In this document: one piece after another, positions 5,977 through 26,064 of the stretch | How positions within the stretch are numbered: position 1 is the stretch's first letter | Layout: the number at the start of each line of letters is the position of its first letter | DNA from: a virus | IMG/VR virus record: IMGVR_UViG_3300044731_001095 | Location: 1 to 29,232 of that record | DNA: 29,232 bases | Reading direction: 5' to 3' (one strand) | Position numbers and translations under genes: made by a program | The notes under the pieces: model-generated | What the model was told of the DNA's origin: nothing | What the model saw: the letters and a program-made list of their open reading frames with translations, nothing else | Databases searched by the model: none

Positions 5977-6342
5977 CTAGTCGATGGCGTCGTAAGCAGA
6001 GCCGGAAATGCTCAACTTCGTTGCGTCCGAGTTTGAAGCGGAAGCGTCCACGGAATCCAAAAAGCAAAGCCCGGTGGAAGTGATCCCGCCGATAGTCAGC
6101 GCAGCAAGTGGAGCCTGGCTGATACCAATCCCCAAATCTTGGGTGGTGATGGCGTACCCGTCCACCTGCACGGTGTTCTTTTTCTGAAAGTAAACAATGG
6201 CGGCAAACTCGCCTTCGTGGTCGGCAATTTCCTTTTTGCCGGAACTCTTTTTGATCGAACAATTCTGGACGAGAAGCCCAGTGTAGTCAGGTGCCCCAAA
6301 GGTGATTCCGGAGTTTGAAGGGTGGATGACAGCAGCGCACAT
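5977..6342 (-). CDS. Putative major tail tube protein
   Basis: A 121-residue protein, beta-rich (EGEFAAIVYFQKKNTVQVDGYA, LAALTIGGITSTGLCFLDSV), lying just downstream of the tail terminator-like gene and upstream of the chaperones, where lambda has its tail tube gene V. It is short for a tube protein. I start at the ATG at 6342: the longer frame to 6444 runs inside the previous gene and is Arg/Cys-rich. There is no SD, but AAGTTGACA ends 14 nt before this ATG. The assignment is from position and fold style; another small tail protein is possible. Confidence 0.6.
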   Translation of the reverse strand: MCAAVIHPSNSGITFGAPDYTGLLVQNCSIKKSSGKKEIADHEGEFAAIVYFQKKNTVQVDGYAITTQDLGIGISQAPLAALTIGGITSTGLCFLDSVDASASNSDATKLSISGSAYDAID

Positions 6343-6356
6343 ACAAGCGCGCCAAC

Positions 6357-6365
6357 TGTCAACTT
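6357..6365 (-). repeat. AAGTTGACA start-proximal motif, copy 1
   Basis: Exact AAGTTGACA on the minus strand, 14 nt before the ATG of the putative tail tube gene. It contains the TGA stop of the gene upstream. No -10 element follows. Confidence 0.75.
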
Positions 6366-6757
6366 GCCTGCTGAGCGTGGCACCGCACCTTGACCGACTG
6401 CACCGAGACATCCTGCGCCCACTGGCTCGACGTCCCTTGAACATACCACGAAAACAGCGTGACCTTTGCCGGGTCGCAGAGGTCTTCTTTGTCCGTGTTA
6501 CAGACTAAGGCGAACATGTCTTGGAACGTGTCCTTTGCGACATCGGCGTCGTGTTCCATCCGGTTCACCCGCAAGGCGACCTCGATCTCCACTTCCCAGA
6601 TTCGCGAGCCAGGGGAAAACTCCTTAACGACCTCCGCCTTTACCACAACCGCCTTTGATTCTCGGATCTCGTCCGTCTCACGCTCTAAAATCTGAACGCC
6701 GGTCAACCCCGCAAGCGCCTCAGCGATCCCCGTTTCGATGTCAGAGAGGAAATCCAT
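6359..6757 (-). CDS. Probable tail terminator / tail completion protein
   Basis: A 132-residue acidic protein starting MDFLSDIETGIAEALAGLTG. A short N-terminal helix then strands (VVVKAEVVKEF, IWEVEIEVALRV), followed by a helix ending in CNTDKEDL, resemble the gpU or minor tail completion type of fold. It follows the connector gene by 1 nt and precedes the putative tube gene, which is the lambda Z/U-like position. There is no SD (CTCGTAAAATG). Function inferred from position and general layout. Confidence 0.6.
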   Translation of the reverse strand: MDFLSDIETGIAEALAGLTGVQILERETDEIRESKAVVVKAEVVKEFSPGSRIWEVEIEVALRVNRMEHDADVAKDTFQDMFALVCNTDKEDLCDPAKVTLFSWYVQGTSSQWAQDVSVQSVKVRCHAQQAS

Positions 6758-6758
6758 T

Positions 6759-7082
6759 TTACGAGTTCGGCTTTTCGAGCGTGAGTTTCACTGTCGGGAA
6801 ATTCGGAAGAACCTGCACAGGAAGAACGCGGAACGTAGTTCCCCCGAGCACCATGACATTGGAGCTGGCCCGAGTTGTTTTGTGTTTGAGCCACTGCGCC
6901 GTGGAAATAATCACGCCCATCGTTTGCGTCTCGATCATCCCACCGTCCCCGATCGGGAACGATTCCGCTTCCGTCTCTGGGATTACCTGCACCGTTTTAC
7001 CGTTCAATGTCGCGTCCGTTGCGTACATGCGAATGTTCTCGGTCGCGGCCCCGGCAATCGCCGCCTTAAAATATGGATCCAT
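6759..7082 (-). CDS. Probable head-tail connector protein
   Basis: A 107-residue protein starting MDPYFKAAIAGAATENIRMY. The C-terminal half (VMVLGGTTFRVLPVQVLPNF) resembles small beta-rich head-tail joining proteins of the gpFII type. It is the first gene after the capsid gene and its terminator. The ATG at 7082 follows the terminator's U tract directly, so readthrough or processing must supply its mRNA. No SD. Confidence 0.55.
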   Translation of the reverse strand: MDPYFKAAIAGAATENIRMYATDATLNGKTVQVIPETEAESFPIGDGGMIETQTMGVIISTAQWLKHKTTRASSNVMVLGGTTFRVLPVQVLPNFPTVKLTLEKPNS

Positions 7083-7118
7083 AAAAGAAAAGGGCGCTCC
7101 CCTTTCGAGAAGCGCCCT
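7083..7118 (-). terminator. Intrinsic terminator after the major capsid gene
   Basis: On the minus strand an 8-bp perfect stem (AGGGCGCT with AGCGCCCT, at 7111-7118 and 7091-7098) is followed by TTTTCTTTT at 7083-7090. It ends exactly at the next gene's ATG. It would uncouple high capsid expression from the connector and tail genes. Confidence 0.82.
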
Positions 7119-7133
7119 GTCAACCGCTTACGC

Positions 7134-8084
7134 TTAGACCTGTGTCGCGATCAACTGCCCAGCAGTCTCGTCTATGATCTTTTCCACACAGTTTTGACGA
7201 ACCCGAACCATGTCACCGCGCCGACCTTCCTCGCGGTAGGTTTCGGTGGTGTACAGGTCGGAGTCTTCGCTCCAAACCAGTGTGCGGCCAGCGCCACCGG
7301 CTGCGAAGTCCCCGCTCTGGACATTTCCAAGCCAGACGTGGGAGTCAGGCCAGATGAACGACAAGGAAGCGGTTTGCCCCTTCTTGGCGGCGTCCTTGGT
7401 GCCAGCGGCAACAATGACATTCAAGCCGAACTCGTCGCCCACATCCTGTGGCTTAACGGTGCGGGAAATACCGCTCGGGAGGTTCCCGAACAGGTAAGCC
7501 TGGAACTTCGTCGAGCGACGGATGCGATTCCACATCTTCAGATTCAGTACCAGGGTGTTTGCGACTTGGCCATACATCGCAAGCCGCTCCTGAGCTGCCG
7601 ACAAGTCAGCGGCAAAATCGATGGTCGCAATGTTTCCTTCCGAGTAAGCAACGCTTCCGTTGGTCGTCGTGAAAACTCCCGTGTCCATAACTTTCGCAGC
7701 GCAACGAACCTCAGCCGCCAACATGATATTACGGAGCAACATCTGCGCGGTGATCTTTTCGTTATCGAAGAACCGATCCATGTCGCGTGTGAACGCGTCG
7801 TCGATCCGCTCTTCAAGCCCGCGATCCAAACAGTCGTAACTGTCAGATTCGTAGGAGCGAGAAATCTCGTTGTACGATCCGTTTGCGCCGCGAAGCGTGT
7901 CTGCCGCCGCCTTCAAGAGTTCCCCTTTGGAAACCTTGATCTTGGGATAGATTGCCGCACGGGAGGAAACTGACAGCGCGGGAAGAACCTTCTGCGCCAC
8001 CAGTGTGGTTTCAACGCTCGCCGCCTGTAGGACGTAAGAATTTATGTCATGGCGAATGATCGCCCCAGCATTAGAGTAAGCCAT
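7134..8084 (-). CDS. Major capsid protein (HK97-like fold likely)
   Basis: A 316-residue protein starting MAYSNAGAIIRHDINSYVL. It follows protease-scaffold and decoration genes and precedes connectors, the standard place for the coat gene. Recognisable coat features are an N-terminal segment about a multi-subunit surface (KVLPALSVSSRAAIYPKI), the long spine-like helix after the Arg/Asp-rich loop (FTRDMDRFFDNEKITAQMLL), and a mid-protein YGQVANTLVLNLKMWNRI followed by FGLNVIVAAGTKDAAKKG. The C-terminus carries TYREEGRRGDMVRVRQNCVEKI, usual in this class. The gene ends in its own terminator, fitting high expression. No SD; a T-rich run precedes the ATG. Confidence 0.9.
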   Translation of the reverse strand: MAYSNAGAIIRHDINSYVLQAASVETTLVAQKVLPALSVSSRAAIYPKIKVSKGELLKAAADTLRGANGSYNEISRSYESDSYDCLDRGLEERIDDAFTRDMDRFFDNEKITAQMLLRNIMLAAEVRCAAKVMDTGVFTTTNGSVAYSEGNIATIDFAADLSAAQERLAMYGQVANTLVLNLKMWNRIRRSTKFQAYLFGNLPSGISRTVKPQDVGDEFGLNVIVAAGTKDAAKKGQTASLSFIWPDSHVWLGNVQSGDFAAGGAGRTLVWSEDSDLYTTETYREEGRRGDMVRVRQNCVEKIIDETAGQLIATQV

Positions 8085-8104
8085 AAAAAGTGCTCAGTGG
8101 TGGG

Positions 8105-8470
8105 TTAGTTGCCGGGAAGGAGCGGGATAACCTCGATGAGGTCTCCGTCCGCTGTGGCTGCTTCGATTGCTCGGAAGCTTGCCGTGTTGGAGCTGACAGA
8201 GGTGGGCGACAGCTTGCCGCTTGCGCCTCCGTAACAAACGGCACCTGCCGTAATTGCTCCATTAGCCGTCACCTCGAAGGTTCCGGGTGCCGTGAGCAAC
8301 TTAACCGTGACAGAATCGCCGCTTGCGCAGTCCTGTGTCACAACGCCGATTGTCACGCCATTAACGGCGGTCGCGAGATCAACCCCGCCCGAGCTGTTCA
8401 ACATTACTCGCTGGCCTTTTACGGCGGCGAACGACGCGATGAAGGATCGAAATCCAGTGTTGTTTTCCAT
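8105..8470 (-). CDS. Head decoration / capsid-stabilising protein (DUF2190-like)
   Basis: A 121-residue Gly/Ala/Val/Thr-rich protein with the pattern of small capsid-stabilising proteins: RVMLNSSGGVDLATAVNGVT, then IGVVTQDCASGDSVTVKLL, then ANGAITAGAVCYGGASGKL. It lies between scaffold and major capsid genes, like lambda D between Nu3 and E. It probably binds the outside of the expanded capsid. The stop of the previous gene is 1 nt upstream and there is no SD. Confidence 0.8.
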   Translation of the reverse strand: MENNTGFRSFIASFAAVKGQRVMLNSSGGVDLATAVNGVTIGVVTQDCASGDSVTVKLLTAPGTFEVTANGAITAGAVCYGGASGKLSPTSVSSNTASFRAIEAATADGDLIEVIPLLPGN

Positions 8471-8471
8471 T

Positions 8472-8930
8472 TTAGAGCTTTGTGAAGATCCCAGAGGCGC
8501 TAAGTTCAGCGCGGTGAAGGTCAGGGTGTTTTTCTATGGCGAGGCGTGTTGCCTCTGCTCGGGTTTTTCCGGTTGCCATGTACTCGGAAACCTTTTCCGA
8601 GAAGTTGGTTGTCTTGGCTTTACCAGCGGCAGAAGAAGCCGAGACGGAGACGGAAGATGTATTCTTGAGAAGCTCGGCCATCGCCTCTTGCTTCGCGGAG
8701 AACTCGGTGAGCTTCGCGAGGATCGCAGACATCGCCGTTGGCTCGTCGTCCGCTTCCAGCTTGGTCTTTTCCTGCCCTGCGCCTTCGGCTTCGATTGCTG
8801 CCTTAATCAGCTTTTCGAGCGCCTCAACGCGGGCGGTAAGTGCGTCGATACCGGCAGCGTCTGCCAGCTCAGTTGTCTCCTCGTCTTTGGGAGACTTTTC
8901 CTTTTCGAGGGTGGGGTCGGGTTTGGACAT
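8472..8930 (-). CDS. Scaffold protein from an internal start
   Basis: The ATG at 8930 (Met161 of the protease gene) would give a 152-residue scaffold alone, starting MSKPDPTLEKEKSP. Support comes from three facts: the protease domain ends just before it, AAGTTGACA ends 14 nt before it as it does before the full-length ATG, and nested scaffold genes of this kind are well known in lambda-like phages. An AGGG lies 3 nt before the ATG. The motif here also encodes in-frame Glu-Val-Asp-Lys, so it must satisfy both roles. Confidence 0.65.
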   Translation of the reverse strand: MSKPDPTLEKEKSPKDEETTELADAAGIDALTARVEALEKLIKAAIEAEGAGQEKTKLEADDEPTAMSAILAKLTEFSAKQEAMAELLKNTSSVSVSASSAAGKAKTTNFSEKVSEYMATGKTRAEATRLAIEKHPDLHRAELSASGIFTKL

Positions 8931-9410
8931 ATCCCTGTCCGCCTTGTCAACTTCCTCGAATAAGCCACCGGGGTTCGCTGCCGGATCTGCCACTAAGTCA
9001 ACTGATCGGATTTTCGTGCAACGCGCTTTATTCCCCTCCGGCTCACCCTGGAACGAAACGGAAAGCCCGAACGTGTCTGGCATTTTCTCGGCCAGCTCCA
9101 AAACGTGCTCTCGTCCCTGAGCTGTCGAAAGAAGATGGAAGTCCCCAATGAGCTTCTTCCCTTCAACCCGAAAATCTTTAATTACCCCGAGGATTTCAGA
9201 GACTCCGCCCTTATGTTCCGCTTTTACCTTAACCCCGCTGGAAAACGTAGTGGAAGAAGCCTTTAGCTGCGCGAGTGTCTTTGCGTCAACGATGAGATCG
9301 TGACCGAGAGCCGGGCCTTCAGTGATGACAGAAACACCAAAGATAACGCCCGCCTCACGGTCAATGTGACTGGAAGCGAGAGTCTCAGAAAAGCAGGTAA
9401 CACGGCCCAT
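8472..9410 (-). CDS. Prohead protease with C-terminal scaffold domain
   Basis: A 312-residue protein. The first 150 residues look like a prohead serine protease: GVSVITEGPALGHDLIVD, then AEHKGG (His66 as likely catalytic His), then GLSVSF (Ser117 as likely nucleophile), then RSVDLVADPAANPGG, the usual end of the protease domain. From Met161 the protein becomes acidic and coiled-coil (LTARVEALEKLIKAAIEAEG) and ends in a basic helical tail (KTRAEATRLAIEKHP), as expected of an internal scaffold with a capsid-binding C-terminus. This mirrors lambda C/Nu3. The ATG at 9410 lacks an SD but AAGTTGACA ends 14 nt before it. The capsid genes follow. Confidence 0.86.
   Translation of the reverse strand: MGRVTCFSETLASSHIDREAGVIFGVSVITEGPALGHDLIVDAKTLAQLKASSTTFSSGVKVKAEHKGGVSEILGVIKDFRVEGKKLIGDFHLLSTAQGREHVLELAEKMPDTFGLSVSFQGEPEGNKARCTKIRSVDLVADPAANPGGLFEEVDKADRDMSKPDPTLEKEKSPKDEETTELADAAGIDALTARVEALEKLIKAAIEAEGAGQEKTKLEADDEPTAMSAILAKLTEFSAKQEAMAELLKNTSSVSVSASSAAGKAKTTNFSEKVSEYMATGKTRAEATRLAIEKHPDLHRAELSASGIFTKL
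8945..8953 (-). repeat. AAGTTGACA start-proximal motif, copy 2 (inside protease gene)
   Basis: Exact copy inside the protease-scaffold coding sequence, 14 nt before the in-frame internal ATG of the scaffold. Confidence 0.75.
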
Positions 9411-9424
9411 GCGTAGGGCCGGAC

Positions 9425-9433
9425 TGTCAACTT
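9425..9433 (-). repeat. AAGTTGACA start-proximal motif, copy 3
   Basis: Exact copy in the 28-nt gap between the minor head gene and the protease gene, 14 nt before the protease ATG. Confidence 0.78.
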
Positions 9434-9438
9434 AGGCG

Positions 9439-11037
9439 CTAAATCCAAACGGGCGGACTTACCCTCTCTTGATCTGCTTTGCGCGCTGTATTTCTTTCGT
9501 TGATCGCTCGCATTGTTTTGTCTGGGTTTGCAATAAGGTAAGCCATTGCCAGCCTCTGCGCTGTCGCGGTTTTTGCAGGGTGGGGGGCCCGCTCTGCGTG
9601 GTACGCGGCGATAGCCGCCGCCTTATAGTCGGCATCCCCATTTGCGGGGATGCTGTTAAGTATCATAACGGCATCAGCTTGCGTGGCCACCATCGCGCGG
9701 CGAATCCCGTCGGGCGTGGTGTCGCTTATCTCCTGCTTTAATGAGTCATTGTGAGCGGTAACCTCGGCCCGTGCCGCCTCAAGCGCAGCCTCGATCTCGG
9801 GGAGAACTTGCGGAGGAATAGCCAACCGCCCAGCATTTGCAACGAATCCGGCTGGTAGCCCTTTTGTCCCGTAGGCGATATTGCCTACAGGTGTACGAAT
9901 CCCATTGATAACTGAATGCACATAAACCTGCTTAGGCCCATCTGTGCGCATATTGCCGTTGCGCATGATTTCATAATCCACCTCCACCTCTACCGCCACG
10001 GGGGTTCCGTTCGTCGATTTCCATTCTGTTTTTTTACTTCTTGGCATCGCCGCTATAACTGGAGCCTCAGGAGCCTTCACTTCCGAAACCTTGGCCCTCG
10101 CTTCCTGTAGTCTTGCGATGGCAGAATCAATACGGGATTCCTTGCGCTCAATCTTCTTTGTGTGCGCTCGAAGAATTTGAAACAAAGACCGCTCTTTTTT
10201 TACTAAAGGAGAACCGTCTCTTGGCGCAAATTTGCCACCTTCCCGCCTTGCGTTGGGATCAAGGGGCCTCGCCTTGGCTGTTTGTTTGGCTGGCTTTGGC
10301 CCGCGCCCGGACAGGTCTTTTTTTGCTCCTGTGATGGCCTGTTTGTAGTGGGCCGAAACGGCTTCAGCTTGCCCCTTGCTTGCAAACCTCCCTGCCTTGC
10401 GAGACACCTTCGATTCGTCCCAAGTTGTGAAATTTGTTACCTTGGCGGCATTCCGCAGCGCGGTGATTCGCAATTGGCTCATAAGGTCTTTCCTCTGGTC
10501 GATGGTGATTGTACTCGGCTTGAACCAGCCGTCCTCGGTCTCTACGTGAACACGGCTCAGCCGGTCTTTCAGAAACCCGAGCGCCCCTGATCCCAGCGTG
10601 TTCCGTTGGACGGCCCCCGCTAAAACTTTACCCGCTGCTGTGCCTGCCGCTTTCTGTGCTGCTGTTGCCCCAGCTTTCTGCGCGACAACGCCAAGGACTT
10701 TGCTTCCGACTGCTGTCGCTGCCTTCGCTGCAATTTTCTGGAAGAATCCGCCGAGGATAACCCCAGCCGCGCCCACGGCCACCTCTGGCAACGCGGCCAC
10801 CGCCGCCGCTCCGACTGCCGTTTCCGCTGCGACTTTCCCAAGCCATGAAACTTTGAGAACCGTTTTCCCGCCGCCCGTCGTCACGCTACCAAGCCCAGGA
10901 ATGGAGCGGGGTTTAGACTCCCCACTGCCAGCTTTGGCTGGTGCTTTGGGTGCTTCCCCACCGCCGCCTTTCGGCGCGAATTTGCCCCCGACGCGCCGGT
11001 GCTTCGATTCATCCCACTCTAAATTCGTAAACCTCAT
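9439..11037 (-). CDS. Unusual minor head protein with repeated KFAP motifs
   Basis: A 532-residue basic protein between portal and protease, where other phages keep minor head or internal virion proteins. It starts FTNLEWDESKHRRVGGKFAPKG (residues 3-24, shown here as WDESKHRRVGGKFAP). Two related copies follow: WDESKVSRKAGRFASKG at about 206-222 and PNARREGGKFAPRDG at about 261-275. Residues about 65-145 form a long Ala/Gly/Val-rich stretch (GAAAVAALPEVAVGAAGVIL) that could be membrane-active. The C-terminal half is a mixed region I do not recognise. WDESKHxRxxGGKFA motifs are known in several phage head proteins near portal/MuF genes. Possibly an internal head or ejection protein. ATGA overlap with portal. 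Confidence 0.75.
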   Translation of the reverse strand: MRFTNLEWDESKHRRVGGKFAPKGGGGEAPKAPAKAGSGESKPRSIPGLGSVTTGGGKTVLKVSWLGKVAAETAVGAAAVAALPEVAVGAAGVILGGFFQKIAAKAATAVGSKVLGVVAQKAGATAAQKAAGTAAGKVLAGAVQRNTLGSGALGFLKDRLSRVHVETEDGWFKPSTITIDQRKDLMSQLRITALRNAAKVTNFTTWDESKVSRKAGRFASKGQAEAVSAHYKQAITGAKKDLSGRGPKPAKQTAKARPLDPNARREGGKFAPRDGSPLVKKERSLFQILRAHTKKIERKESRIDSAIARLQEARAKVSEVKAPEAPVIAAMPRSKKTEWKSTNGTPVAVEVEVDYEIMRNGNMRTDGPKQVYVHSVINGIRTPVGNIAYGTKGLPAGFVANAGRLAIPPQVLPEIEAALEAARAEVTAHNDSLKQEISDTTPDGIRRAMVATQADAVMILNSIPANGDADYKAAAIAAYHAERAPHPAKTATAQRLAMAYLIANPDKTMRAINERNTARKADQERVSPPVWI

Positions 11038-12497
11038 ACGCTCGGTGGTTGCCCTGGTTGCGGAGCCCCTGCTTGCTGGTTTGGGAACCGCTGACTGATT
11101 TCCTCGATTGGAACGCCCATTTCCTCAGCAATTTCCTTAATGCGTTTCCGTTCGCGTCCGAGTTGGAGAAGCTGCTCTTCCCAGTCTTCATTCCGCTCTG
11201 CGTAAATGTCCGACATCGTTCGCGCTCCGGCCTTCCACTCTTCAAGGTTCGATGCCGACTCACGCCCGAGGTCACTGCTAGGCCATGCTGGGAACTGCCA
11301 TTTGCCAGCCTTCCAGTCGGGGCACGAAGGGAGACCGTCGAACGAAATCCCGAACGCTATGACAGCGTTTTTCACACGGTTCAAAAACTTGGAAACGAAT
11401 ATCCGTTGGTAGCGATTGCAAACCCGATTGGCTTGTTGGGAGTCCAGCCGACCAGCAGCACCACCCAGCGCGGAGGAGTCCACGAAGAACCCATAGGAAA
11501 CCCCAAGCGAGAGACACACGTCCCGCTGTAACGCCTGCATGAATCCCGAGAACGTGACAGATGGCCGCTCACTGCGGAACGTCTCCATAGACTCACCGGG
11601 CCGGAGGTAATTCACTTGGCCGAACTGGATCTTTTCCAACGGCAAACCGTCTGCGCCTTTCGGAGAATCCCACGCGGAACCTTCCCCCGCTTCGTTTTTC
11701 ACAACGCCGGTTTGAGCCGCCGCCCATCGAGCCGCGAACCGCTCCGACTGCATCACGTCGCAAATATCGCGAGCGGTATCTATCGCGGAAGCAAAGTGTG
11801 TCGTCCCCCGCGCCTGATCCAATCGCTTAGGGTCAAAGAGGTGGATAAACTGACTGGCGGGAACCTCCACGGGGTCGATATACATCCCCTCCCGCGTCCG
11901 ATTGAATACGCGATATTGGATCGGCGCGCCCGTCTCTTCGTCCGTGGTAATGCCCGCGAGATACGTCTCCCCAATCGAACCTTCGCCGGGTCTCCCAATG
12001 CGGTCAGCCTCAACGTATTGCAGCTTCCACCCTTCCGGAGTTAGGCGCATATTGATTCCGATGTCCCCGTCCCGAATCATCGAGGTGAACGCGAGCGAAA
12101 CGATCGTGTTGAAATCGTGCCTGCCGGTCGAATCTGCGCCCTCACTCCACTCTTCAAAGTACGCCTCATACTTTGCGTTTATGTCCTTATCCGCAGTGCG
12201 AGCCTGATATTTCAGCGACCCGAACGTGTACAGTGCCAGCTTGCCGAGAAGGCCGGTGAGTAGCGGGAAATTCTCTTCAAGCTCGCGAGCCTCCCAAATG
12301 AGCTGCACCCGGTCGCGATTATTCGCGGAAGAGTCTGGAGACTGATTGCCGGAACTCGGCGCAAGTTTCCGCTCCCGTCCGGGTCGTGCTGCGCGGTGGC
12401 TTAACTCGGTCAGCACTTCGCGTGCATGGAGCCGCTTGACTGCCATTCGAGGCGCGACAACCGCCAGCGCGGAGTCAAAAAGATTGGATAGCTTCAT
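11034..12497 (-). CDS. Portal protein (lambda family)
   Basis: A 487-residue protein forming the ring through which DNA enters the head. It follows terminase and a gpW-like gene, as in lambda B. Typical features are the N-terminal ELEENFPLLTGLLGKLALY region, then GDIGINMRLTPEGWKLQYVE with a strand-rich core, the VPASQFIHLFDPKRLDQARG segment before helices with QSERFAARWAAAQTGVVKN, and LSLGVSYGFFVDSSALGG ahead of the long C-terminal helix with ANRVCNRYQRIFVSKFLNRV. The C-terminus ends in Pro/Gln-rich sequence. No SD; the ATG lies 3 nt after the previous stop. Confidence 0.92.
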   Translation of the reverse strand: MKLSNLFDSALAVVAPRMAVKRLHAREVLTELSHRAARPGRERKLAPSSGNQSPDSSANNRDRVQLIWEARELEENFPLLTGLLGKLALYTFGSLKYQARTADKDINAKYEAYFEEWSEGADSTGRHDFNTIVSLAFTSMIRDGDIGINMRLTPEGWKLQYVEADRIGRPGEGSIGETYLAGITTDEETGAPIQYRVFNRTREGMYIDPVEVPASQFIHLFDPKRLDQARGTTHFASAIDTARDICDVMQSERFAARWAAAQTGVVKNEAGEGSAWDSPKGADGLPLEKIQFGQVNYLRPGESMETFRSERPSVTFSGFMQALQRDVCLSLGVSYGFFVDSSALGGAAGRLDSQQANRVCNRYQRIFVSKFLNRVKNAVIAFGISFDGLPSCPDWKAGKWQFPAWPSSDLGRESASNLEEWKAGARTMSDIYAERNEDWEEQLLQLGRERKRIKEIAEEMGVPIEEISQRFPNQQAGAPQPGQPPSV

Positions 12498-12500
12498 GGG

Positions 12501-12731
12501 TTAGCAGGTCGCAAAGGTTCTCCGCCGCACATTCCCCCGCCGTTCGTTCATCGCTTGCGTTGCGCCGTCGAGCTGCGCCGTCAAAAGCGCCATGTCACGC
12601 GACGCGGAAGCGCCACCGGCCCCTGTGGAGCTGAACGGATTGGCGACCTGCTCCTTTAGCCGGGTCAACTCACCTTGCAGTTCGGGCGTGGTGTACGCTC
12701 GGTAGATCGTTAGCCAGCTCGGGTTCGCCAT
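12501..12731 (-). CDS. gpW-like head-tail joining protein candidate
   Basis: A 76-residue protein between large terminase and portal, the exact place of lambda gene W. It starts MANPSWLTIYRAYTTPELQGELTRL, has a helical Leu/Glu/Lys part, a Gly/Ala/Ser loop, then QAMNERRGNVRRRTFATC, like the Arg-rich end of gpW-type proteins. It overlaps the terminase 3' end by 62 nt in another frame, which is long for this compact genome. No later start would preserve the conserved-looking N-terminus. AAGTTGACA ends 16 nt before its ATG, supporting the chosen start. Confidence 0.7.
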   Translation of the reverse strand: MANPSWLTIYRAYTTPELQGELTRLKEQVANPFSSTGAGGASASRDMALLTAQLDGATQAMNERRGNVRRRTFATC

Positions 12732-14460
12732 TTGCTGCTGTGCGCGGTGTCAACTTTGGAGCCTCTACCTCTGGGAACATGATCCCGGACGCGAGCGCGC
12801 AAACCACCTGCATACATTCCAAGTCCCAAGCGTGGTTATCCTTTCGGATAGGCTCCCAGAGACCTTTCTCGGTCTTCCTCTCCGCGGTCACTTGATCCAT
12901 GTACTCAGGGGGAGCGTCCTCAGCGATCTCCCACGGAGCCGCATCCCCTCGAACGTGAAGCGCAAGGATGTCCTTCACCATCGGATTCGAGTACAGGAAC
13001 AACCGGAGCTTTCGCCGCCCCTGTTCGCGTGTGCCGATACCAGGGTCAACCATCGTATCGACCCACGCCCGGCGAGTCCCTTTCACGTTGTAGTACGGCG
13101 CTCGGTCTCCCTTGAAAGGTTTCCACTTGTACCCAGAGCCGACACAAGCCCGATACACGGCGGGCGCGTCATAGCCCGAATCAATAGCGACATCCTCGTC
13201 GCTGACCCTGAGCGATTCGGCCAATCCTGCGATTTCGTCAAACGATCGGAATTTGCCGAACGCAATCAATCGAGACGCGCCACCCCGAGCCCACGCCCTG
13301 CACACATACCAGAAGTGATCCGCCTGCACGTCAACCGTTAGGAAGCGCCGTTGCTCAATATCCCACGTGGTTTCCAGTGCGAACGATCCTTTGCGTTCTC
13401 CAATCACTGACCAGTCACGTCGGCCTTTCTCCTCGTCCTTCCAGACCTCGGCGCACCGCTTTTGCACGAACTGTTTCAGCGGTTCGAGGTTCCCATTCTT
13501 CGCCTCGGCTTTCGCGTGGAGGAATAGCGTCACCTCCTCAGCCCACGGACACCACCAGACACCAAACGCGGTATAGGTTCGCGAGCGTTTCCCAGAAACA
13601 AAGTTGCCTTCCTCCGCCCGGTACTCGCCACGCAGGGACATTTCGCGCCGGGCTGCTGTGGTGTCGGGCGTGACGTGTCCGCAGTGTGGGCACTCATGCC
13701 GGACGGAGTCCGCGATCCTCGGCCAATCATGCGTGCCGTCCTCCGTCTCCGCCGCATCCCATTTGATATTTGCCCAGAGGTACGGATGCCATTTGCTGCA
13801 CCCTTCGCAGGTTGTCCCCCAGGTGAACTTCTCCCCCGACTCCCACTCCCCATCCATGTCGTGCCCTTGATCCCAGCCTTGCGAGACCAACAGAAGCTTC
13901 TGGTTCCACCTCGAATGAAATCGAGCCCGAGCCTCTGTGATTTTCCCAGTATCCCACCGCCAGACCTCATCACAGAAAACGTAACGAACGCTCTTCTCCT
14001 GCAAGCTGCTCATATTCGCCCCCACCGCGAAAAGCGGCATGTGTGGGAAAATGATCTCAGCCTTTCGTTTCTTGTGCCGGTCTTCCGGGAATAGCTTTGC
14101 CACTGGCACACACGCCTCCAAGACTGGCTTTAGTCGCGTCTCCATCCATTGAGCCGCCGTCTTATCGGTCTGCCCAACGCTCAGCACCGGCCCGCTCTGG
14201 TTCGCCACGATCCACAACAGCGAAAGCTCCAACAGTGTCGTCTTCCCTCCCCCGGTTGGAGACCGTAACACCACCTGTTTCACTGAGTCGTCGCAAATAT
14301 CCTCAATGATGGCGTTAAGCCAAGGCGCTTGGTCGCGATCAAACAGCGTTGACCGGCAGCTATGCGGAAGCCGGGCGTGTTCCTCCAGCCAATCCAATGG
14401 ACTGCCAGCATACGGGGGAGTAACCCCAATGCTCAACCCCTCAAAAACGGGGTGGCTCAT
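12670..14460 (-). CDS. terL: Terminase large subunit (lambda GpA family)
   Basis: A 596-residue DNA packaging motor and nuclease. Walker A is RSPTGGGKTT at about residues 66-75; the Walker B/catalytic Glu is YVFCDEV at about 160-166 (Asp164, Glu165). Two CxxC pairs (CEGC near 218 and CPHC near 256) could bind zinc. The nuclease domain shows LTVDVQAD, then VAIDSGYDA, then NHAWDLE near residue 560, giving the acidic residues. The family (GpA) normally cuts at cos sites, so cos packaging is inferred. ATG overlaps the small subunit stop as ATGA, with GAGGT as a close SD. Confidence 0.95.
   Translation of the reverse strand: MSHPVFEGLSIGVTPPYAGSPLDWLEEHARLPHSCRSTLFDRDQAPWLNAIIEDICDDSVKQVVLRSPTGGGKTTLLELSLLWIVANQSGPVLSVGQTDKTAAQWMETRLKPVLEACVPVAKLFPEDRHKKRKAEIIFPHMPLFAVGANMSSLQEKSVRYVFCDEVWRWDTGKITEARARFHSRWNQKLLLVSQGWDQGHDMDGEWESGEKFTWGTTCEGCSKWHPYLWANIKWDAAETEDGTHDWPRIADSVRHECPHCGHVTPDTTAARREMSLRGEYRAEEGNFVSGKRSRTYTAFGVWWCPWAEEVTLFLHAKAEAKNGNLEPLKQFVQKRCAEVWKDEEKGRRDWSVIGERKGSFALETTWDIEQRRFLTVDVQADHFWYVCRAWARGGASRLIAFGKFRSFDEIAGLAESLRVSDEDVAIDSGYDAPAVYRACVGSGYKWKPFKGDRAPYYNVKGTRRAWVDTMVDPGIGTREQGRRKLRLFLYSNPMVKDILALHVRGDAAPWEIAEDAPPEYMDQVTAERKTEKGLWEPIRKDNHAWDLECMQVVCALASGIMFPEVEAPKLTPRTAANGEPELANDLPSVHHARTAR
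12748..12756 (-). repeat. AAGTTGACA start-proximal motif, copy 4 (inside terminase gene)
   Basis: Exact copy within the terminase large coding sequence (encoding Lys-Leu-Thr), 16 nt before the gpW-like ATG. Confidence 0.72.
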
Positions 14461-15011
14461 ACCTCAGCCAACTCCTTTAGCCTCGAATTCAGCGACAGGA
14501 GCAGCGCAACAATGCGCGCCTTCAGCCTCGATTTCACCCCCGCCTCATCCAGTCCCGCCAGTTGACCGGGCATATCTCCGAGCATTGCCTCCAGCTCAGT
14601 GGAAAACAGCGAACCAACCACTTGGTGAGACTCTCGAACCTCTGCCCGAGAAATCAGCGCGCCTTGAGCCTGCTCCAACTCCAGCGCCTTCAGTTTAATT
14701 TCCAGCCGGAGTTTGTAGAGCTTAGCCGTTTCGAGGTCGCGAGCCTCTCCATCGGGCGCGTCCACCGGTGCAGTCTCAGGCTCCATTGGCCCGACCTCGC
14801 CAGTGATAACTCGAAGCAAACTCAGAAGGTCTTTGTCTCGGAGTTTCTTCCGAACGGACGGGCTTCGGGACGGCTGTTGGTTCTTAAACCACTGCACCAA
14901 CCCCACCGATGAATTGAGCGGAGCCTTCTTCGTTACCCACTCCCGGACATTCCGCTCAGCTACCCCCCAGAACTTTGCGTGTTGTAGTATAAGTTCCCGC
15001 GCATAGGCCAT
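14457..15011 (-). CDS. terS: Terminase small subunit (Nu1-like)
   Basis: A 184-residue DNA-recognition subunit for packaging. The N-terminus contains a short HTH-like segment (FWGVAERNVREWVTKK, about residues 14-29), the style of Nu1 family proteins that read the cos region. The middle is a long charged coiled coil (TAKLYKLRLEIKLKALELEQ, near 95-115) used for oligomerisation and contact with the large subunit. It directly precedes the large subunit with ATGA coupling. The ATG at 15011 has GGGGGA just before it and AAGTTGACA ending 13 nt before it. Confidence 0.88.
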   Translation of the reverse strand: MAYARELILQHAKFWGVAERNVREWVTKKAPLNSSVGLVQWFKNQQPSRSPSVRKKLRDKDLLSLLRVITGEVGPMEPETAPVDAPDGEARDLETAKLYKLRLEIKLKALELEQAQGALISRAEVRESHQVVGSLFSTELEAMLGDMPGQLAGLDEAGVKSRLKARIVALLLSLNSRLKELAEV

Positions 15012-15154
15012 TCCCCCAGCGGTTTGTCAACTTAGCGTCCAGTTTGGATGCTATTGCCCGAAAATTGGCCCATAAGGACTGATCGGCCCCTAGCGGCACC
15101 TGCACTAAGTGCCTGTCGTTAAGGAGACTTCCTGACCGGGGTATCCTCTACCCC
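15012..15154 (-). other. Intergenic region before terminase; candidate cos/pac region
   Basis: A 143-nt stretch without a gene, unusual in this packed genome, directly upstream of terS. It holds a perfect inverted repeat GGGGTA-N5-TACCCC (15138-15154), a short palindrome GCACTTAGTGC near 15103-15113, and AAGTTGACA. In lambda the cos site lies just before Nu1, so this is the natural candidate for the packaging site. I cannot identify a nicking site by eye. Confidence 0.4.
15025..15033 (-). repeat. AAGTTGACA start-proximal motif, copy 5
   Basis: Exact copy in the intergenic region, 13 nt before the terminase small subunit ATG. Confidence 0.78.
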
Positions 15155-15388
15155 TCACGCCTTGTCCGTCTGCCTCCAGCCCGCTGCCTTCTCTTCCTTC
15201 TCGATAGCCCGGTCGAGATACCACCTCGCCTTCTTCATGTCTTCGAGCTTCTTACCCTTGGCGCCACATCGCCAAAGGTACTTGAAAACATTCCCTGTTA
15301 GGAAATCCATGTGCTCAGTGATTGTTATACATTCAATGCCGCTAGGATGCGCCGTGTAGTGGGCTGGATGCTGGACTGGATCGCTCAT
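15155..15388 (-). CDS. DUF3310 family protein
   Basis: A 77-residue protein with the typical pattern: VQHPAHYTAHPSGIECITI near the start, then LTGNVFKYLWRCGAKGK, then DMKKARWYLDRAI. These HPxHY, GNxxKYxxR and ARWYLD elements define DUF3310, common in phage genomes; a T7 relative (gp1.7) is a nucleotide kinase that contains related sequence, so a nucleotide-linked role is possible but not shown. Its ATG overlaps the stop of the upstream HTH protein. It is the last gene before the putative cos region. Confidence 0.85.
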   Translation of the reverse strand: MSDPVQHPAHYTAHPSGIECITITEHMDFLTGNVFKYLWRCGAKGKKLEDMKKARWYLDRAIEKEEKAAGWRQTDKA

Positions 15389-16029
15389 GCCCCCACCTCC
15401 ACCAGTTCAATCCCATTATCCCGCTCAATACAGTTATACGTTTGTTTATTAACAATAACCCGCATCGGTTGCTTATTCCTTAACACCCTGCGCACTGTAG
15501 CGCATTCGCTTGGCAGATTATTTATTGGCATAAACATGTATTTAATATCATTCCCCTCGATTAGCGGCGGGCCTTCCTTGAGTGCCTTACGCCAGTGATT
15601 GCGTTTGTTAAGCTCGGCATACGTCGCGCACGCCTCAGCGGACTTGCTGTGCATATTATCCGGCAAGCTGAGTTTCCTGCGTGCTGCCGTGCTGTGTTTG
15701 CTTATTGCCTGCTTAGTCACACCAGCGGCCCGAGCAGCTTGCGTTATCGAATTGAACCCTATGCGCCCGTGTAAGCCTGACGCGAAAAGCGCACCTAACG
15801 CTTGCGTCTGAAGTGGCCCTTTAATCTCAGCGAGACGGGTGATCGCCTCCGCTGCTATCTCCGACGCTATGGCGTGCGCCTCAGCGTCTACTCGCTGGAG
15901 ATGCCACTCGGCTATCTTGCGCGTCAGCATGGGTTGGAGACTTAGCTCCCCCAGTTCTTCGCGGAGTTTATCGCCAATGGTGTCTAGCTCCTGAGCAATA
16001 TCCGGCCAGCACGAAGGTTCACGGGTCAT
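15385..16029 (-). CDS. Helix-turn-helix protein, possible late regulator
   Basis: A 214-residue protein with an HTH near residues 94-119 (SITQAARAAGVTKQAISKHS, then TAARRKL), similar in style to sigma-70 region 4 or resolvase-type HTHs. Before it lies a helical region (AHAIASEIAAEAITRLAEIK). The C-terminal 70 residues (IEGNDIKYMFMPINNLPSEC, then VNKQTYNCIERDNGIELVEV) are coded by AT-richer DNA than the neighbours. It has its own upstream gap with a promoter-like sequence and comes just before terminase, a good position for a late-gene activator. An alternative is a packaging-related DNA-binding protein. Overlaps DUF3310 gene as ATGA. Confidence 0.75.
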   Translation of the reverse strand: MTREPSCWPDIAQELDTIGDKLREELGELSLQPMLTRKIAEWHLQRVDAEAHAIASEIAAEAITRLAEIKGPLQTQALGALFASGLHGRIGFNSITQAARAAGVTKQAISKHSTAARRKLSLPDNMHSKSAEACATYAELNKRNHWRKALKEGPPLIEGNDIKYMFMPINNLPSECATVRRVLRNKQPMRVIVNKQTYNCIERDNGIELVEVGA

Positions 16030-16156
16030 GTCCGAATTGTGTATATTTCCGGCAGGAAGTACAGAATCAAGACACGATCTGCGGGTTTTTTGTCAACTTT
16101 TCGACAACTTGGGAGAGGTGAGTGAGAGGAACGCTGAGAATGGTGAAATTTGGGCC
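16030..16156 (-). promoter_or_regulatory. Intergenic region with possible promoter for the HTH/late operon
   Basis: A 127-nt gap. It holds AAGTTGTCG (16102-16110) and AAGTTGACA (16091-16099), two AAGTTG units 11 bp apart, about one helical turn. A weak promoter candidate is TTGATT (16065-16070) with TATACA (16040-16045), spacing 19; its -10 ends 10 nt before the ATG, so the leader would be only a few nucleotides. Promoter assignment is tentative. Confidence 0.4.
16091..16099 (-). repeat. AAGTTGACA motif, copy 6 (distant from start)
   Basis: Exact copy 61 nt before the HTH gene ATG, unlike the other five. It is paired with a related AAGTTGTCG 11 bp upstream. Confidence 0.7.
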
Positions 16157-25762: not shown

Positions 25763-26064
25763 TACTCAGCGCCCTCCAGGTTGAGCGGTACTTGGTCAGG
25801 GTCTTCTCCCCAAATGTCCGCCTTATCCTTAATGGCAGGCTGAGGCCCATTGATCGAAATGCTCGCATGGTGAGCTTTGCCCCGCTCATCCAGCTCGTAA
25901 TGGTGTGCAAAGCGGGACACTCGCGTTTCCCTGTTCGCTCGCCGGATTTCGTTGAGGTGACAAAGAAGTTGATTAACCGTGAGCCGGACTAAATCCTGCA
26001 TAGGGACATCCGCTTGTAGTTGCGCCTCTAACTCTGGAGGTATGGTCTGTATATTTTTCGACAT
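25762..26064 (-). CDS. Small protein, unknown function
   Basis: A 100-residue protein starting MSKNIQTIPPELEAQLQADV. Helices LVRLTVNQLLCHLNEIRRAN are followed by beta-like sequence (SRFAHHYELDERGKAHHASI) and an acidic tail (DQVPLNLEGAE). Preceded by leader element A, which ends 2 nt before the ATG. No family recognised. Confidence 0.72.
   Translation of the reverse strand: MSKNIQTIPPELEAQLQADVPMQDLVRLTVNQLLCHLNEIRRANRETRVSRFAHHYELDERGKAHHASISINGPQPAIKDKADIWGEDPDQVPLNLEGAE

Follow-up and report, generated by a model that had tools for sequence, protein, structure and literature searches.

Start-Associated Sequences (SAS), described in Cluster K mycobacteriophages (PMC3203893) and Cluster EF Microbacterium phages (PMC7302621), lie 3–7 bp before the start codons of non-structural genes and carry an AGGAG that pairs with the 3′ end of the 16S rRNA. 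In the Cluster EC phage Quhwah, a repeated motif is found 22–30 bp upstream of starts, too far for a Shine–Dalgarno (SD) sequence (PMC7302621). The stoperators of Cluster A mycobacteriophages are repressor sites that halt elongation, and a fixed spacing to the start codon is not part of their definition (PMC9283540, PMC6550527). Here we describe a TTGACA box ahead of the late genes in a viral stretch of 29,232 nucleotides (nt; IMG/VR record IMGVR_UViG_3300044731_001095, positions 1–29,232; the whole stretch is referred to as the window), where the box forms part of the 9-mer AAGTTGACA. From its spacing and the bases that follow it, the box seems to set the ends of leaderless or near-leaderless late mRNAs. 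A literature search turned up no earlier account of a TTGACA element tied to gene starts in this way.

Like SAS, the TTGACA box is a short asymmetric repeat in a single orientation, placed at the start codons of many phage genes and present in the phage rather than the host. The two differ in that the box stands 13–17 nt from the start, has neither AGGAG nor 16S pairing, marks structural genes, keeps an exact spacing to GTG starts and is followed by a pyrimidine–purine (Y-R) initiator. Since the box falls outside the SAS distance and has no SD core, we assign it a comparable place, not membership of SAS. The Quhwah motif resembles it in standing beyond SD reach, at a different spacing, and stoperators resemble it as asymmetric repeats across the genome that are read by a phage DNA-binding protein, for which the box has only a candidate. 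The leaderless promoters of Akkermansia are also similar, with a Y-R step, a TTGACA hexamer and a 5′ end on the start codon (PMC4782308), which for the phage box is predicted; the host promoter reads TTGACA-N17-TANNNT near the ATG, whereas the phage arrangement is short of both the −10 and about 16 nt of spacing. When set against a sigma-70 promoter, the box supplies the −35 TTGACA, but a TANNNT −10 about 17 nt downstream is missing, as the ATG arrives after 13–17 nt and the spacer is 64% GC.

The window holds six exact copies of AAGTTGACA on the minus strand, which is the late-gene strand, and none on the plus strand, in agreement with the sequence-only reading of this DNA. The expectation is 0.23 copies for both strands, and at least six copies occurred in 0 of 100 dinucleotide shuffles; a background that keeps codon usage, obtained by shuffling synonymous codons in the minus-strand genes, gave a mean of 0.31 copies and a maximum of 3. 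The core TTGACA occurs eight times on the minus strand and not at all on the plus strand, and it is the functional core of AAGTTGACA. The positions are as follows.

16091–16099, minus strand: AAGTTGACA, 61 nt upstream of the ATG of a helix-turn-helix (HTH) gene (15385–16029), not linked to a start
15025–15033, minus strand: AAGTTGACA, 13 nt before the ATG (15009–15011) of the terminase small subunit gene
12748–12756, minus strand: AAGTTGACA, within the 3′ end of the large terminase gene, 16 nt before the ATG (12729–12731) of the gpW-like gene
9425–9433, minus strand: AAGTTGACA, 14 nt before the ATG (9408–9410) of the protease gene, with a C-A step at the ATG
8945–8953, minus strand: AAGTTGACA, internal to the protease gene and 14 nt ahead of the in-frame ATG (8928–8930) of the nested scaffold, with a T-A step at the ATG
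6357–6365, minus strand: AAGTTGACA, 14 nt before the ATG (6340–6342) of the tail tube gene, with a T-A step at the ATG
7118–7123, minus strand: TTGACA core past the capsid gene and ahead of gene 7082, with a hairpin (7092–7117), TTTTCTTTT (7083–7091) and the ATG next in order

The five gaps to an ATG are thus exactly those first noted, and the chance that at least five of six random sites would be so placed is about 3e-11. It had also been remarked that the boxes resemble a −35 without a −10; a −10 box is indeed absent, and the ATG leaves no room for one. The tail tube copy overlaps the stop codon of the gene upstream, and the gpW-like copy has a C-A step 14/15 nt past the box. An in-frame start nested in the protease gene, as at the scaffold, is the usual lambda-type layout.

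The phage contig L008, a close relative at about 92% identity to the window, retains four of the four AAGTTGACA copies within its span, that at 12748 included, and has an extra AGTTGACA 15 nt ahead of a tail-gene ATG. The copy at 16091 is retained in a second relative, L007. Homology between the window and L007 starts 2 nt upstream of that box, and homology with L008 picks up again 3 nt upstream of the 9425 box; from these edges we conclude that the box travels with the gene behind it. At 9437–9731, the 3′ end of the open reading frame 9439–11037 has been swapped for sequence unrelated to that of L008, up to the 9425 box.

More distant relatives were collected by terminase alignment, giving 80 viral contigs and 37 genomic loci. 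The exact 9-mer stands at homologous places in L007 and L008 only and is at chance level elsewhere; nearly all terminase relatives are without it, and the copies present are not start-linked, except for one at 20 nt in L075. Because the 9-mer was so restricted, a core was sought de novo, and the search for start-linked words returned TTTTGACA in Akkermansia prophages and AGTTGACA in L039. In the viral contigs, TTGACA-to-ATG distances peak sharply at 13–16 nt over a baseline of about 1 per position, a peak that control hexamers and Omnitrophota prophages do not show. TTGACA is the top start-linked hexamer at 13–14 nt (20% versus a median of 1%). The genes with TTGACA-N13..17-ATG in diverged phages are those marked in the window: terminase small subunit, gpW-like, protease, scaffold and tail tube (the last in L016 and L095 also). 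In L039, an equivalent nested scaffold start has TTGACA in a different reading frame. Hence, where the sequence-only reading looked to related phages for the motif at these distances, the exact 9-mer is missing from the distant ones, and its core TTGACA is found at the same genes and distances. The window genes concerned, besides the protease gene, are these.

14457–15011, minus strand: terminase small subunit gene, PHROG match
12501–12731, minus strand: gpW-like head-tail gene, named by position, no family match
8472–8930, minus strand: scaffold frame, nested within the protease gene (8472–9410) and sharing its reading frame
5977–6342, minus strand: tail tube gene

A sister clade carries TTGTCC-N16-ATG at its scaffold and gpW-like starts (47 of 50 distinct sites). 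The full element, in L040–L094, comprises a G-run, a T-run and CTTGTCC, and reads GGGG-TTTTT-N-CTTGTCCC-N10-T-R-N-ATG with near-invariant spacing. Boxes are scarce near genes coupled to their predecessor (1 of 38, versus 12 of 69 uncoupled genes). The box is a real, phage-specific late-gene start element that extends far beyond one genome.

The spacing indicates what the box may position. Of 25 distinct GTG sites with the box 11–18 nt away, 24 have it at exactly 13 nt; the 25 include several orthologues of one gene and are therefore not all independent events. Boxed ATG starts are spread over 13, 14, 15, 16 and 17 nt (36, 22, 9, 20 and 4 sites). The base before a boxed ATG is a pyrimidine in 91% of cases at 13 nt and 81% at 14 nt, versus 54–60% for unboxed phage genes. 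Among 26 sites with spacers of 15–17 nt, 22 have a Y-R step 13/14 or 14/15 nt past the box, compared with 8–15 of 26 elsewhere. The sister clade has it at 14/15 in each of 47 distinct sites, and its purine is always 2 nt before the ATG. As the position of the Y-R step follows the box and not the ATG, and GTG is tolerated in one register, these patterns point to a fixed mRNA 5′ end; since Y-R is the usual signature of a transcription start, a promoter is favoured.

We therefore favour, with confidence a little better than evenly balanced, a TTGACA-type element that would fix the ends of leaderless late mRNAs, most likely as a compact late promoter. The core would be TTGACA, or TTGTCC in the sister clade, with the 9-mer as the form peculiar to the window phage. 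The element would place the late mRNA 5′ end at a purine 14–15 nt downstream of the box, which would open the start codon or lie up to 3 nt ahead of it; with the 5′ end on or near the start codon, the late mRNAs would be leaderless. Such a promoter would have one lone box spanning about −19 to −14 and, in the absence of a −10, a Y-R initiator at the start codon; a phage HTH protein would probably read it jointly with the host RNA polymerase. Genes abutting the preceding gene are mostly boxless and would be translated by coupling. What the DNA shows directly is the box and where it stands, its phage-specific distribution, the exact spacing to GTG, the Y-R step and the presence of the HTH gene; that transcription is the source of the 5′ end, we infer. 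More tentatively, and at somewhat less than an even chance, the boxes may represent a new class of phage late promoter, in which a lone TTGACA-type box at −19 to −14 without a −10 makes the transcript of every uncoupled structural gene begin precisely at its start codon, the HTH factor co-evolves with the box (TTGACA versus TTGTCC clades) and the late operon is split into leaderless mRNAs.

The hosts of box-bearing relatives help to separate these readings from others. A survey of 388 Verrucomicrobiota genomes found a related terminase in 25. Prophage stretches carry up to 6–7 boxes per 20 kb, and their TTGACA-to-ATG counts at 12, 13, 14, 15, 16 and 17 nt are 5, 24, 16, 6, 11 and 5. Host stretches of two terminase-bearing genomes (about 279 kb) have 0 sites at 13 nt and 3 at 14 nt, and the host genes of Akkermansia G003 have 44 at 13–14 nt versus an estimated 39 or so by chance. 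An element of the host's own was accordingly rejected, host sequence showing little or no TTGACA at the phage distances. In 200 kb of Akkermansia DNA, TTGACA instead lies 25–36 nt before the ATG, serving as the −35 in promoters with short leaders, of the form TTGACA-N17-TANNNT, that end near the ATG. It could be argued that the phage copies are likewise ordinary sigma-70 −35 boxes, TTGACA being the −35 consensus in use at host promoters, or that they are recombination linkers at module boundaries, given the two homology breaks 2–3 nt from a copy. The first would require a −10 for which there is no room, with the host −35 sitting much farther from the ATG, and exact spacing at the same genes in diverged phages would be unexpected of a linker. 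Conservation at the same genes, the prophage counts and the exact GTG spacing largely rule out both, and we consider them extremely improbable.

From its box-bearing relatives, we infer that the host of the window phage is a member of the Verrucomicrobiota. The suggestion that this host makes little use of SD agrees with the same 200 kb of Akkermansia DNA, in which SD-like words are not enriched. Akkermansia has been described as SD-scarce with an intact CCUCC (PMC10783764), and 10% of its mapped transcription start sites are leaderless, with YR at −1/+1 in all mapped species (PMC4782308). Leaderless late mRNAs would suit such SD-poor, leaderless-tolerant hosts. The same hosts would also suit a translation element on long mRNAs, in which a protein brings the 30S subunit to UUGACA at −14 to −22, in place of SD. 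The distance to the start codon, the nested scaffold start on a shared mRNA and the absence of the box from coupled genes all speak for this proposal. We regard it as rather unlikely, however, as host genes do not have the element (the G003 counts above), and it leaves both the exact 13-nt GTG spacing and the box-anchored Y-R step unexplained. Pairing with the 16S rRNA, which the sequence-only reading suggested checking, is not supported: no TGTCAA complementary to the box occurs in Akkermansia-like 16S genes, located by sequence pattern in 17 Verrucomicrobiota genomes that may not include the host of the window phage. Of the sequence-only reading, then, the start linkage, the missing −10 and the SD-poor host are supported; the 16S pairing is not, and an SD substitute would account for neither the GTG spacing nor the Y-R step.

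A candidate reader of the box is encoded just upstream of the terminase genes.

15385–16029, minus strand: HTH protein of 214 amino acids, candidate box reader

This HTH family lies upstream of the terminase in 16 of 16 box-bearing records checked, and homologues were found there in L007, L041, L043, part of the sister clade and all box-bearing prophages whose upstream DNA was examined. In a comparison of six loci, the 57 kb downstream of the HTH gene held 14 boxes and the 63 kb upstream held 2, with none antisense. RinA/ArpU-type late activators are HTH genes located before the terminase and are thought to turn on the packaging and morphogenesis genes. The window HTH gene occupies the same place, but has no match to those families above the cut-off. 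Against Pfam, the protein gave weak generic HTH and Sigma70_r4 matches only, against NCBIfam no match up to E = 1, and a PDB search with its predicted model returned generic HTH matches only, with no E below 0.1. From its position and co-occurrence, the phage HTH protein probably reads the box. TTGACA is also found 30–63 nt upstream of the HTH gene in five records, including L007, L236, L274 and L275, which could reflect autoregulation, and the copy at 16091 is a possible autoregulatory site of the window HTH gene. These upstream sites, together with the short asymmetric word in a single orientation, would also be compatible with an operator for a phage repressor or regulator, acting as a stoperator-like roadblock near late starts. 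A roadblock requires no fixed distance to the start codon, however, and boxes are rare before the HTH gene and never antisense, so that we think an operator very unlikely.

Several observations weigh against a promoter. We know of no RNA polymerase that uses a lone box at such a position, and a spacer of 64% GC is unlike a melting promoter region. Alone among the window copies, that at 15025 has an A in place of the pyrimidine, whether directly ahead of the ATG or at the 14/15 step. The model of the proposed reader has a mean pLDDT (predicted local distance difference test) of 59, confident in the HTH region and poor outside roughly residues 61–120. Spacers also fold better than controls (z of −8 versus shuffles and −4.6 versus swapped halves, among sequences that are related), and a small hairpin in about 40% of them, above controls, hints at RNA. 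Two longer spacings look hairpin-bridged and are better explained at the RNA level: the 7118 core in the window, 35 nt from the gene 7082 ATG with a 26-nt hairpin and a T-run between (identical in L008), and L247 17530, where 20 nt from box to ATG include a 17-nt hairpin.

These features would be expected if the late genes were transcribed as one long RNA and a nuclease recognised UUGACA with a GC-rich mini-hairpin, cutting at the Y-R step 13–15 nt downstream to yield leaderless mRNAs; a cut would fit the Y-R step and the exact GTG spacing equally well. We judge RNA processing of this kind unlikely. Many spacers have no stable hairpin, among them those of the five canonical window copies, none of which folds better than −1.7 kcal/mol, and as position-by-position covariation is weak, the hairpin is not taken as defining. 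In addition, the YG step at GTG starts suits a transcription start at least equally, no nuclease candidate was identified and the sister-clade element reaches upstream into G-runs and T-runs, which is more DNA-like.

Taken as a late promoter, the TTGACA box suggests a previously undescribed way of switching on phage late genes in SD-poor bacteria, and it bears on how long phage structural operons are expressed in such bacteria, Akkermansia included. Each uncoupled late gene would obtain its own leaderless mRNA from a minimal signal, with the conserved phage HTH protein as the likely master switch, a mechanism that becomes testable experimentally. In Verrucomicrobiota phages, the box also offers a means of finding regulators and late genes and of recognising true start codons, GTG and nested ones included.

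Other start-associated sequences were seen in the relatives. In L014 (Verrucomicrobia phage P8625; 5448, 10772 and 15594) and L098 (2639 and 7962), TTGACA is followed by a GTATCC...GGATAC-type dyad, with the ATG 2–3 nt on, at gpW-like and other late gene positions; these sites are either leaderless promoters of the host type whose −10 is poor, or the TTGACA element in a hairpin-bridged version. L100, a prophage in a goat Akkermansia metagenome-assembled genome, has a different start-linked word, (A)CTAAATAA, in about 12 copies, mostly 7–8 nt before the ATG, at 7–8 genes. In L240 (1131–2404), L239 and L243, an accessory late module lies between the HTH gene and the terminase and contains a methyltransferase-like gene with its own TTGACA box. 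In the window, the strong hairpin and T-run past the major capsid gene (7083–7117, minus strand) resemble an intrinsic terminator, all of which L008 keeps. Finally, two early gene starts on the minus strand, at 26064 and 25074, have in common a long element 45 nt upstream, GGCAAAAAACAAAA...GCAACAAGGCACGAA[C/G]T-start, which is unrelated to TTGACA.

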